A stretch of DNA of 64,000 bases, taken from NCBI RefSeq assembly GCF_000429125.1, contig NZ_AUBG01000015.1, positions 1 to 64,000 on the forward strand. The letters are read 5' to 3'. The stretch's first letter is position 1. Every line of letters starts with the position of its first letter. The stretch is from Aequorivita capsosiphonis DSM 23843. GTDB lineage: Bacteria > Bacteroidota > Bacteroidia > Flavobacteriales > Flavobacteriaceae. Both the position numbers and the translations under genes were made by a program. The notes under the pieces are model-generated. The model did not search any database. It worked only from the letters and a program-made list of their open reading frames with translations, and was not told the DNA's origin. Positions 24,003 to 52,300 of this stretch are shown one piece after another.

Positions 24003-24060
24003 GTCCTCGGCGCTGCTGGGACACCGGAGACTGTTCCGGTGTACGAGCGGAGCCGAGGAC
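24003..24060 (+). repeat. Compound palindrome of the GAGCGGAGCCGAGG family
   Basis: Outer arms GTCCTCGGC / GCCGAGGAC (9 bp) enclose inner arms ACACCGGA / TCCGGTGT (8 bp) with loop GACTGT. It starts 8 nt after the SSB stop and 39 nt before the GIY-YIG ATG. The right half CGAGCGGAGCCGAGG recurs at 24411-24435 and, degenerate, at 46704, 49781 and 27213. It may also end SSB transcription. Confidence 0.75.
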
Positions 24061-24098
24061 TATTTTAATATCTTTTATAATCATCTTGATTCAATATT

Positions 24099-24455
24099 AT
24101 GCCAACTGGATATATGTATATTCTTAAATGTCATGAGGACACCTATTATACGGGAAGCACAATAGATTTGATGCAACGGTTTTTAGAACATCAAAGTGGG
24201 CATGGAGCTAATTACACAGTTAAAAGGCTTCCAGTATTACTTTTTTATTTTGAAGAATATCCTCGGATCGAATTAGCATTTCATCGTGAAAAACAGGTGC
24301 AGAATTGGAATCGAAAAAAGAAAGAAGCACTCGTATTTAAAAAATATAAGGAATTACATCAATTGTCGGTTTGCAAAAACAATTCTCATTGCTCAAACAA
24401 AACCACTGGATCCCCGAGCGGAGCCGAGGGGGACGAAAGCAAAGAAATAAATTGA
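24099..24455 (+). CDS. Small GIY-YIG nuclease with repeat-derived C-terminal tail
   Basis: A 118-aa protein with the GIY-YIG motif in the form YMYILKCHEDTYYTGST (5-21), then Arg27 and HxS/GHG, and a Glu in EYPRIELAFHREKQVQNWNRKKKEAL, matching UPF0213/YhbQ-like stand-alone nucleases. Residues about 103-118 (GSPSGAEGDESKEIN) are not part of the fold: they are encoded by a copy of the GAGCGGAGCCGAGG repeat. A second, truncated copy of the gene follows immediately. The substrate is unknown; members of this family are often multi-copy in Flavobacteriia. Confidence 0.85.
   Translation: MPTGYMYILKCHEDTYYTGSTIDLMQRFLEHQSGHGANYTVKRLPVLLFYFEEYPRIELAFHREKQVQNWNRKKKEALVFKKYKELHQLSVCKNNSHCSNKTTGSPSGAEGDESKEIN
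24411..24435 (+). repeat. GAGCGGAGCCGAGG repeat inside the GIY-YIG 3' end
   Basis: TCCCCGAGCGGAGCCGAGGG shares its 14-nt core with the palindrome at 24003-24060 and encodes GSPSGAEG in the nuclease tail. Confidence 0.65.
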
Positions 24456-24654
24456 AAGATTACCAGTTCATTTAATATATGTTGAAATTTTCACAAGAAT
24501 AGATCACGCTTATGAAAGAGAACACCGACTAAAAAGATGGTCTAGAAAAAAGAAAGAAGCTCTCACAAATGGACAATTAATAGAACCAACAACTCTTTCA
24601 AAAAAGAAATTTACAATCAAAGTGGCTCGAATGATTTCTCATTCACAATGTTAA
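24454..24654 (+). pseudogene. Truncated second GIY-YIG nuclease (3' half)
   Basis: A 67-codon frame without a start translates to RLPVHLIYVEIFTRIDHAYE and continues RLKRWSRKKKEALTNG. It aligns with the C-terminal half of the intact gene (KRLPVLLFYFEEYPRIELAF and QNWNRKKKEAL) and ends at TAA 24652. The GIY-YIG half is missing, with an in-frame TAA just upstream. It begins exactly at the stop codon of the intact gene, so a recombination between tandem copies is likely. Confidence 0.8.
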
Positions 24655-24740
24655 TGGAAAAGAACAATCAAAGATCCCTGAGTGATTACAGTATATTCCA
24701 ATGTTTAATTAAAAGAACAGTCAAAGGTTCTTGAGTGATT
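24646..24740 (+). repeat. Two direct repeats of a 42-nt GIY-YIG 3'-end segment
   Basis: Copies at 24646-24687 and 24699-24740 both run CAATGTT...AAAAGAACA, TCAAAG, then TGAGTGATT, with a handful of mismatches. The words GATCCCTGAGTGA look like decayed forms of the GATCCCCGAGCGG repeat at 24410. Beyond them, 24741-24826 shows only AT-rich sequence leading to recQ. Confidence 0.6.
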
Positions 24741-26917: not shown

Positions 26918-27187
26918 TTAAACTTGAGAATCGATTTTTATTTCAAGATTCTTAAACCGATTTAACCGTCCCGTATCACTCATATCAAAACAAGGACAGC
27001 GCTTGCAGCGTTTGTGTTCTCCTTTTTTCAGGTACTTTTCGCAACATTCAACCTTAAGGCCTTTCCCTTTGTCCTCCGAAGCCTTGGCGTAGGAGGATTT
27101 CTTCTCCTTGTCCTCCGTAGCCTTACGGCCTTCGTAGCCACTTCGGCGTAGTTGGCTAGCGTAGGAGGGTTCTTTTTTATTTCCCAT
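26918..27187 (-). CDS. Small Cys-rich protein with repeat-expanded N-terminus
   Basis: An 89-codon frame from the ATG at 27187. The conserved core is VECCEKYLKKGEHKRCKRCPCFD, a Cys/Lys-rich motif seen in short Bacteroidota proteins of unknown role and probably metal binding. The segment before it (EPSYASQLRRSGYEGRKATE, KSSYAKASEDKGKG) is encoded by two copies of a palindromic repeat and is unlikely to be ancestral. It lies 46 nt downstream of the deacetylase gene on the same strand and 3 nt from the convergent recQ stop. It is real but of unclear expression. Confidence 0.55.
   Translation of the reverse strand: MGNKKEPSYASQLRRSGYEGRKATEDKEKKSSYAKASEDKGKGLKVECCEKYLKKGEHKRCKRCPCFDMSDTGRLNRFKNLEIKIDSQV
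27070..27169 (-). repeat. Two tandem CCTACGCCGAAG-type palindromic repeats inside a gene
   Basis: Copy 1 (27070-27096) and copy 2 (27109-27169) both read, on the minus strand, TCCTACGC... to GGAGGACAA, with internal dyads such as CTACGGAGG and GGCTACGAAGGCC. In frame they encode SYAKASEDK and SYAS...YEGRKATEDK. This word pattern recurs throughout Bacteroidota genomes. Confidence 0.7.
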
Positions 27188-27233
27188 TACATTATTCAAT
27201 AAGAATTTTCGTTCACTGAGCGGAGTTTAAGTC

Positions 27234-49306: not shown

Positions 49307-52300
49307 TTAGTTTTTAAAAGGCTCCAAAGCATTCAACGCTTTATCAACCGAAGAAATCCCCTCAAAAGTCAAAATCAAACGCAATCCGTTGCGGGTTTGT
49401 TTTTCTTTCATCGTCACCTTTTGCCGATGAATTTGCACATATTGAAGCACTTTTGAAAATGAAGGGCTTTGGTAAAACGCGCTCTGTTGATCTGCAACAA
49501 AATAACCGACCATCTTTTTCTTCTTCATTATCAAACGCTCTAAGCCCATAGAAATAGCAAGCCATTTTATCCTTACGCTGTTCAGCAAATCTTCTGCTTC
49601 CCTGGGAAGTTCTCCAAAACGATCTAGCAATTCTTTTTCAAATTTCTGTAGCTCTGCTTCGTTTTTCAACTGGTTCAACTTTGTGTAGAGATTAAGCCTT
49701 TCAGTAATATTATTGACATAATCATCTGGAAAAAGAAGTTCGAAATCTGCGTCTATAGTAATTTCTTTTACAAATTTCCGGTCTCCTCGTCCTTCGGCTC
49801 CGCTCAGGATAGACTCCGACGAAGTGTCGTCATAAAGATCTTTAAATTCCTTTTCCTTGAGTTCGTCAATGGCTTCTGAAAGAATTTTTTGATAGGTTTC
49901 AAAACCAATTTCGTTGATAAATCCGCTTTGTTCGCCACCAAGCAAATCACCAGCACCTCTGATTTCCAAATCTTTCATTGCGATGTTTATTCCACTTCCC
50001 AATTCTGAAAACTGTTCTAAAGCAGTGATTCGTTTTCTCGCTTCATCCGTCATTGCAGAAAAATCTGGGGTGATAAAATAGCAAAATGCTTTTTTATTAC
50101 TTCTACCTACGCGTCCACGCATCTGATGCAAATCGGAAAGTCCGAAATTATTGGCGTTGTTGATAAAAATAGTATTTGCATTCGGCACATCCAAGCCACT
50201 TTCAATAATGGTTGTAGAAACCAAAACATCAAATTCATTGTTCATAAACCGAAGCATCAAATCTTCCAGTTTCTTCCCGTCCATCTGCCCGTGGCCGATC
50301 CCGATTTTCGCATCTGGCACCAAGCGCTGGATCAATCCTGCGACTTCTTTAATATTTTCAATTCTATTGTGAACAAAGAAAACCTGTCCGCCACGTGATA
50401 TTTCATAACGAACCGCATCGCGAATGCTTTCTTCCCCAAAACGAATAACGTGCGTCTCCACAGGATAACGGTTTGGAGGAGGCGTTGTAATTACCGATAA
50501 ATCCCGCGCAGCCATCAAACTAAACTGCAAGGTGCGCGGGATTGGGGTTGCCGTTAGGGTTAGCGTATCTACATTTTCCTTAATGGTTTTCAATTTGTCT
50601 TTAACACCTACACCAAACTTTTGTTCTTCATCAATTACCAACAATCCCAAATCTTTAAATTCTACCGATTTGCTTACCAATTGATGCGTGCCGATTACAA
50701 TATCAAGTCGACCGTCTTTTAAACCTTCCAAGACTGCTTTTCTTTCTTTTGCAGTTCTAAAACGGTTTAGATAATCAACTTTTACGGGCATTTCTGAAAG
50801 ACGTTCCGAAAAAGTTTTAAAATGCTGAAACGCCAAAATAGTTGTGGGTACTAATACAGCGACCTGTTTTCCGTTGTCTACCGCTTTGAAAGCCGCGCGA
50901 ATGGCGACTTCCGTTTTTCCGAAGCCAACGTCGCCACAAACCAAACGATCCATTGGCCGCTCGTTTTCCATATCTTTTTTTACATCTTCCGTGGCGGTAC
51001 TTTGGTCTGGCGTATCTTCATAAATAAAGGAAGATTCCAATTCTGCTTGTAAATAACTGTCCGGATCATAAGCAAATCCTTTTAGCGTTCTACGTTTTGC
51101 GTAGAGTTCAATTAAATTGAAAGCAATTTCCTTGACACGGGTTTTCGTTTTTTGCTTTAGTTTTTTCCACGCATCACTACCCAATTTATAGATTTTGGGT
51201 TCACGACCATCCTTGCCGTTATATTTTGAAATCTTATGAAGACTGTGAATGCTGAGGTACAGAATATCGCGTTCGCCATAAAAAAGTTTGATAGCCTCTT
51301 GCATCTTTCCTTCCACTTCAATTTTTTGAAGTCCGCCAAATTTCCCAATTCCGTGGTCAATATGCGTCACATAATCACCAACTTCCAGATTAGAGATTTC
51401 CTTTAAAGTAATTGCCTGTTTTTTAGCGTACCCATTTTTCAGCTGAAACTTATGATAACGCTCAAAAATCTGGTGATCGGTATAGCAAACTACTTTTAAA
51501 TCATCATCAATAAAACCCTGAAATAACGGAAACACGACGGTTTCAAACTGCTGCACATTTTGTTCGGCATCTTCAAAAATATCTTGAAAGCGTTTTGCCT
51601 GCTGATCACTACTACAGAATATGTAATTTTTATATCCATTCTCCGTATTTTCATTCAAATTCTCAATCAGTAAATTAAATTGTTTGTTGAATGAAGGTTG
51701 TGGTCTAGTTGAAAACGAAATCAAATCTGAAATCGAAATCGAACCATTTTTTATATGAACTGAAGTAAAATCCTCAAGTTGTTGTTTCAATAAATCCGAA
51801 GTACAGAATAACTCAGACGGTTTTGCGCGTTTTATTTCTGAATCGATTGCATTAAAAGCTTCAGTAGCTTTATTGAACAGGGTGTCAATAGCACTGCTGA
51901 AAAGTTCTTCGTTTTTCAGAAAAACCACGGTTTTTGAATTTATATACTTCAGAAACGTTTCTCGATTTTCATCAATCATCTTGTTTTCCACATTCGGAAT
52001 GATGGAAACCTTTTTCACCTGTTCTAAAGAAAGTTGTGTTTCCACGTCGAAAGTCCGGATGCTATCAACATCATCCCCAAAAAACTCAATTCGGTATGGT
52101 TCGTCATTGCTAAAGCTGAAAACATCCAAAATTCCACCACGAACAGAAAACTCACCTGGTTCGGTAACGAAATCTGTTCTTTTGAAATGGTATTCAAACA
52201 AAACCTCGTTTACAAAATCGATTGAAAGTTGGTCGTTAACTGCAATCTTTAATGTATTTCTTTCTAATTCCTTTCGGGTAACTACTTTTTCAAATAGCGC

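Follow-up and report, generated by a model that had tools for sequence, protein, structure and literature searches.

Stand-alone GIY-YIG nuclease genes between inverted hairpin repeats: candidate partners for CGTC-type REPs

REPs rank among the common repeat types found in bacteria. Di Nocera, De Gregorio and Rocco (2013, PMC3733652) sorted them into GTAG and CGTC superfamilies; of these two tagged superfamilies, one had a partner enzyme (RAYT), and the CGTC REPs were apparently without a dedicated transposase, a question left open in 2013. As described there, CGTC REPs carry a CGTC, TGTC or CCTC tag, an 8–9 bp stem starting with AT and a loop of 4–5, their tails are mostly CCA, dimers are frequent and intragenic copies occur (PMC3733652). 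The word GIY is absent from that paper and from the passages considered of the later REP papers PMC12306157 and PMC6006769. Searches of open-licence full texts likewise found no report of a REP/GIY-YIG link (an earlier report elsewhere is possible), and the papers in the open-licence literature that matched a literal search for our repeat words were unrelated by title.

The unit described here resembles the REP plus RAYT system (REPtron) in that a dispersed, tagged hairpin repeat flanks a small enzyme gene in inverted orientation, each enzyme has its matching repeat type, and repeat dimers occur. However, the enzyme is a GIY-YIG protein (PF01541) instead of a Y1/HUH protein (PF01797), and the tag is GTCA instead of GTAG. 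Because the enzyme differs, the unit falls outside REP/RAYT, and the best reading, by analogy, is that it would work like REP/RAYT without being a member.

A second point of comparison is provided by free-standing GIY-YIG homing endonuclease genes, which are also small and patchily distributed, with occupied and empty sites. In contrast to these, the present genes are bracketed by a dispersed repeat family that tracks them, and there is no single fixed target gene. As for the protein itself, its nearest relatives of solved structure are the UPF0213 proteins 1zg2 and 1ywl (E 8e-13 and 2e-9), which by sequence belong to the same protein family.

The ssb–recQ locus and its repeats

The window, i.e. 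the whole stretch of 64,000 nucleotides from Aequorivita capsosiphonis that was analysed, contains an intact GIY-YIG gene with ssb (PF00436) on one side and a recQ-type gene, named from its sequence, on the other. Its product matches PF01541 only, and not Y1/HUH PF01797. Tyr7, Tyr17, Gly19, Arg27, His31 and Glu64, which we take to be the catalytic positions, are among the columns invariant in 10 diverse members. The following features are relevant:

24003..24060, no strand: upstream palindrome, an inverted dimer of the compact repeat with a spacer of ~26 nt and a decayed left arm (from arm pairing and folding, and from the corresponding dimer of congener G174, which is better preserved)
24099..24455, + strand: intact stand-alone GIY-YIG nuclease gene of 118 codons (PF01541, E 4.8e-14)
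24412..24431, no strand: single copy of the compact repeat overlapping the 3′ end of the GIY-YIG gene (core CCCCGAGCGGAGCCGAGGGG; same core 3′ of the G174 gene)
24465..24654, + strand: 3′ end left over from an older GIY-YIG gene that belongs to another subfamily (76% identity over 37 aa to the intact G151 gene)
24646..24740, no strand: two decayed direct copies of CAAAGGTCCCTGAGTGATT-type words, probable remains of the older element's long repeat (an intact long repeat follows the G151 gene)
49792..49805, − strand: compact repeat core, in-frame insert in mfd (present in 3 of 26 congeners)

The first-pass annotation had placed a compound palindrome just ahead of the open reading frame, and this structure is real: it is 58 nt long, its 26-nt arms are 85% complementary, it ends 38 nt before 24099, and as single-stranded DNA it folds at -25.3 kcal/mol (z -8.05), with 0 of 200 shuffles as good. 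The short copy at 24412-24431 folds no better than shuffles (z 0.08). It had also been proposed that the tail of the gene is made of the repeat. The core CCCCGAGCGGAGCCGAGGGG does encode part of the last 15 residues, but this is best read as an overlap between gene end and repeat; in congener G174, the same core lies at about the same place after its gene. Within the window, a 12-nt core occurs three times at ≤1 mismatch (24045, 24416 and 49794; 0.07 expected), and the genome holds 27 matches to a 14-nt pattern versus five for the reversed pattern. Of the further copies claimed, those at 27213 and 46704 were not found at ≤1 mismatch, while the one inside mfd is real and in frame. This compact repeat (window 49780-49820) is found in three of 26 genomes of the genus, namely the window genome, G166 and G151, and mfd lacks it in the other 23, which shows that the repeats enter the reading frames of essential repair genes. 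Downstream of recQ, at 27060-27170, the window also contains another GC-rich palindromic repeat family (CCTCCGTAGCC..., GTAGGAGG).

The site itself varies within the genus. recQ could be placed in 26 of 28 genomes, the other two lacking a placed recQ match. In 22 of these 26, no GIY-YIG gene is present, ssb and recQ are ~80–120 nt apart and, judged by eye, a terminator-like hairpin lies between them. The remaining four (the window genome, G156, G174 and G151) have a GIY-YIG gene upstream of recQ; for G151, ssb falls outside the stretch fetched. G174 shows the unit in better shape: CCTCGGCTCCGCTCG, ~26 nt and CGAGCGGAGCCGAGG are followed by the gene and then by a single copy near the gene end. 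The GIY-YIG gene of G151 is a different one, with a long repeat of the form AAAGGTCCCTGAGTG-hairpin-TATCGAAGGG behind it; upstream of this gene (L274) lie about three tandem copies of a ~110-nt unit containing AACCTTTGATTGTTAGATTC.

The partial second GIY-YIG gene reported after the stop codon is confirmed as well: the remnant matches PF01541 positions 36-76 (E 7.7e-4, below the cut-off), and its 76% identity over 37 aa is to the intact gene upstream of recQ in G151. Behind it, the presence of two direct copies of 42 nt (24646-24687 and 24699-24740, 81%) is also borne out; they resemble decayed words from the long repeat of the older element, which is seen whole after the G151 gene. Because the decayed words at 24646-24740 resemble pieces of that long repeat, the site appears to have received two elements one after the other, with the 5′ part of the first displaced by the second.

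Repeats beside GIY-YIG genes in other genomes

A search with the window protein in 149 genomes of its family, nearly one per genus, gave 100 matches in 62 genomes. For flank analysis, 66 genes were used, i.e. the window's gene and 65 others, with the second copy in its own genome (G000:C2:170-421) left out. One of two motifs, H (GTCANNYYGAGY) or C (YYGAGC N3-4 YCGARR), lies within 300 bp of 54 of these 66 genes versus 35 of 252 other ORFs at the same loci, a comparison that is partly circular since both motifs were read from the very loci scored; 12 of the 66 genes have neither motif nearby. Among 33 held-out, weaker matches (again leaving out G000:C2:170-421), only 12 had H or C, and the pair was dropped as a universal description. 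This low rate revealed two further dialects: many of the other 21 held-out genes are preceded either by a CGTCATGCTGAACTTGTTTCAGCAT-type sequence (dialect D) or by a TGTCATTCCGCACTTGATGCGGAATCC-type sequence (dialect E), in each case with the reverse complement after the gene. Plain scoring of the flanks for inverted copies is weak because the repeat centres vary (31/66 at score ≥14 versus 22/252 controls), and a strict hairpin test is weak in this first set because the stems contain mismatches (upstream, 8/66 versus 11/325).

The check proposed by the first-pass annotation, enrichment of repeats beside genes of the window's subfamily, came out positive. In the window's clade, 16 of 17 genes adjoin a repeat versus 13 of 70 control ORFs, and 13 of 17 have repeats on both sides versus 4 of 70, with patterns that were chosen after seeing the loci and a gene set that includes G000:C2:170-421.

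Beyond the family, named genomes were scanned with the D/E alignment, and the best 80 of at least 492 relatives, from many phyla and with 38 of the 80 in Bacteroidota, were analysed. As the query for this set (A1) was derived from the D/E subgroup once the repeats of that subgroup were known, the resulting 71 of 80 genes with GTCA plus a hairpin within 200 bp (best 80 of at least 492; 31 of 200 control ORFs) describe that subgroup; overlap with the family genomes is possible. The motif is absent near the other nine of these best 80. Orientation follows a rule, with tags pointing inward: among the best 80 of at least 492, an inward-pointing GTCA hairpin lies upstream of 55 genes (controls, 11/200), downstream of 51 (8/200) and on both sides of 38 (0/200). 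When all 256 tetramers before hairpins were ranked blind to the tag, GTCA came first, at 66% of the flanks of the best 80 of at least 492 versus 5%. It was also the top tetramer in the held-out family set (33% versus 2%), the first family set being led by TCGA; GTAG was outside the top eight in all three sets.

Plasmids carry such genes too. Of 33 plasmid records that matched, eight were opened, and five of the eight genes are flanked on either side by strict inverted repeats of CGTC type; two Sphingobium loci share a neighbourhood and are not independent. The Sinorhizobium meliloti gene apparently has a CCTC-tag variant, Planktothrix shows partial copies and the Rhizobium tumorigenes gene lacks such repeats. 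In Planktothrix agardhii plasmid p1 (L350), the GIY-YIG gene sits between an annotated MmeI-type restriction enzyme and an annotated DISARM drmA. Tandem or clustered GIY-YIG copies with repeat arrays, identical or nearly so per genome, were seen in L098 (G013), L083 (G108) and L086 (G128).

Among 12 stand-alone GIY-YIG loci of the window's own genome whose flanks were inspected by eye, such repeats occur only at the window gene and at C2:170-421. Seven of these 12 genes sit just 3′ of tRNA-like sequence (L003/L170, L004/L175, L016/L173, L017/L174, L006 and L008/L171, L010/L172), and several are followed, after the stop codon, by a decayed tRNA 3′ half. ARAGORN predicted an intact tRNA beside the gene in L170 (Val), L173 (Met), L174 (Asn) and L175 (Arg) and none in L171 and L172. 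These observations would be compatible with a sister habit, tRNA homing, within the same enzyme superfamily.

Repeat anatomy, copy number and dialects

Dialects A–C share a common plan, YYGAG-X-YCGARR, with either a short loop or another hairpin at X. At the flanking NN/N′N′ positions, 36 of 49 distinct compact elements show complementarity (5.6 on average and 13 at most after shuffling), as do 80 of 88 long elements (32 on average and 43 at most). Among 66 distinct centres of the long B dialect, 51 close with at least 5 bp, and the mean of 6.5 bp compares with a shuffled mean of 2.9 and a greatest value of 3.4 in 200 shuffles. Pairing is maintained while the letters vary. Counted over whole genomes, as the fetched loci alone gave too few pairs, compact elements form inverted dimers 12–40 nt apart 51 times with tags out (27 genomes) versus seven times with tags in (7 genomes), some of them adjoining GIY-YIG genes (e.g. 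in G032, G108, G117 and G138). The layout of a tags-out dimer equals that of the repeat–gene–repeat unit, with ~25 nt in place of the gene.

Tagged elements were characterised beside the best 80 of at least 492 loci, where 111 were picked for GTCA and a stem of ≥7 bp, which fixes GTC and the A at the stem start by construction. In these 111, GTC is preceded by T in 100 and by C in eight, the stem has 8 bp in 102 and 9 bp in six and starts with AT in 101, and the loop has a length of five in 73 and four in 25, with 35 distinct stems in all; the tails are CCA (40), CTA (22), CTT (18), CTC (11) and CTG (7). The elements beside these best 80 of at least 492 genes fit the CGTC REPs closely, as described in the 2013 paper: TGTC/CGTC tag, 8–9 bp stem starting with AT, loop of 4–5, C-initial tail, inverted dimers and intragenic copies, with CCA merely the commonest tail. 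In contrast, that paper presents CGTC REPs without transposase genes and does not tie them to GIY-YIG. A further difference concerns the window's family, in which dialects A–C have mismatched stems. The GAGCGGAGCCGAGG copies of the window and of G174 have no GTCA tag, and the window's repeat is tied to the tagged dialects B and C only via the common YYGAG...YCGARR core, so that it is not filed in the CGTC superfamily.

Repeat numbers, taken as whole-genome totals, follow the gene. Genomes with the gene are richer in compact repeats (median 9, n=62, versus 0, n=87; p=5e-12), against the prospect, raised in the first-pass annotation, that genomes lacking the subfamily would hold as many, and the same applies to long B repeats (p=5e-7). 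Genome size was rejected as the cause, given that in genomes of 2.6–4.8 Mb alone the combined medians are 15 with and 1 without the gene. Dialect D replicates the result, with a median of 5 in 36 genomes with D/E genes versus 0 in the 113 without (p=2.8e-12), and in the close D clade 17 of 17 genomes have D repeats.

Which repeat is abundant goes with which nuclease is present. Long B repeats have a median of 10 in genomes with a B gene (n=19) versus 1 in those that have C and lack B genes (n=21; p=3e-4). For compact repeats, the median is 27 with a C gene (n=27) versus 9 in genomes that have B and lack C genes (n=13; p=0.006). A tree was built from 160 of the 179 proteins of the three sets, after dropping genes with stop codons or of <70 aa; 136 of the proteins bear a repeat label. 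This tree is based on 94 columns and has many unresolved forks. With D and E treated as one merged type, it shows seven changes of repeat type, compared with an average of 54.7 and a minimum of 47 in 200 shuffles; treating them separately raises the number to 22. For 130 of the 136, the nearest relative from another genome has the same merged dialect (52.6 expected), and inside 12 genomes holding several types, 24 of 27 match. Repeat dialect thus tracks nuclease clade, even within one genome. The likeness to REPs and their RAYTs, which the first-pass annotation had drawn from the window, holds in layout: inverted flanks, an unpaired tag plus hairpin, tags-out dimers and a repeat type that follows the enzyme clade. 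The pattern noticed there is real and much wider than the window.

What the nuclease may do

A functional partnership between nuclease and repeat, whether the enzyme spreads the repeats or homes to them, is likely. Within it, we prefer the reading that the nuclease spreads the repeats, with a rough probability of 0.5–0.55. The scales also tip slightly towards a mobile or formerly mobile unit, in which the GIY-YIG gene is framed on both sides by its cognate hairpin repeat in inverted orientation. Weighing against this reading are the 17 of 76 genomes that have at least five repeats but no detected gene, the untagged repeat of the window itself, and the lack of the repeats at most other stand-alone GIY-YIG genes of the window's genome, at 12 of the 66 family genes, at nine of the best 80 and at one of eight plasmid genes. 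The wider proposal has about even odds: the stand-alone GIY-YIG nucleases could be the mobilisers so far missing for the CGTC-tagged REPs. They would make up a second system of REP mobilisation, with a fold unrelated to tyrosine transposases, in which the GTC(A) tag and a freely drifting stem would be read, and enzyme and repeat dialects would have co-evolved across many phyla.

Under such a mechanism, the nuclease would recognise the unpaired GTC(A) tag together with the folded hairpin, either as an extruded cruciform or as a lagging-strand hairpin, and nick or cut beside it. Break repair at new sites, primed from repeat-bearing DNA, could then copy in a repeat or a repeat dimer and, occasionally, the whole repeat–gene–repeat unit. 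The repeats would scatter through the genome as single copies and tags-out inverted dimers, their non-autonomous form.

A less likely alternative holds that another agent spreads the repeats, and that the nuclease is a homing-type parasite which cuts them, its own gene inserting between the halves of a dimer. The inverted flanks, the dialect matching and the copy-number correlation would all follow, the repeats being a precondition for the gene; tags-out dimers do share the flank layout, and 17 of 76 genomes without a detected A–C or D/E gene still have at least five repeats. Yet a further spreading agent is required, for which the PF01797 transposases do not fit, and the 22 empty ssb–recQ sites hold the terminator-like hairpin and no repeat dimer.

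A housekeeping role, in which the enzyme trims repeat-borne cruciforms or hairpins and its gene is regulated or terminated by the repeats beside it, is unlikely. GIY-YIG domains do include structure-specific nucleases. The nucleases are also under purifying selection, which suits this role as it does the preferred reading: over 31 pairs, two of them repeated via two identical gene copies, dN/dS has a median of 0.13 and stays below 0.7 throughout, same-genome paralogues included. Against it, the gene is present patchily, in 62 of 149 genomes, as a mobile unit would be, and occupied and empty sites coexist within one genus. Moreover, 11 of the 100 family matches contain stop codons, as expected of units that come and go.

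That the gene is mere cargo, with RAYT-type or other transposases moving the repeats, is very improbable. PF01797 proteins are common enough to suggest it (59/149 genomes, with five matches in the window's own genome), but the median repeat number is 15 in genomes with the GIY-YIG gene and no PF01797 (n=33), 11 with both (n=29), 1 with PF01797 and no GIY-YIG gene (n=30) and 0 with neither (n=57). RAYT-type transposases were rejected as the cause on these medians; among holders of the gene, PF01797 has no effect on repeat number (p=0.78), and the dialect goes with the GIY-YIG clade. Finally, chance or a composition artefact, for which it could be argued that H and C came from loci later scored and that many small genomes lack both gene and repeats, can be dismissed in view of the same-locus control ORFs, the inward orientation rule, the tetramer ranking, the dialect–clade match and the size-limited comparison; that the neighbourhood of GIY-YIG genes and hairpin repeats is real is practically certain.

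A gene family that is itself bracketed by REPs, and that tracks their copy number and dialect, is a direct candidate partner for the CGTC REPs. If this is confirmed, GIY-YIG nucleases would be among the enzymes that spread DNA, there would be a source for the hairpin inserts of coding genes like mfd, and a hairpin-guided nuclease could be set beside REP/RAYT. Since many relatives in other bacteria likewise sit between such repeats, this GIY-YIG family may be the overlooked partner of widespread repeats without a known mobilising enzyme.
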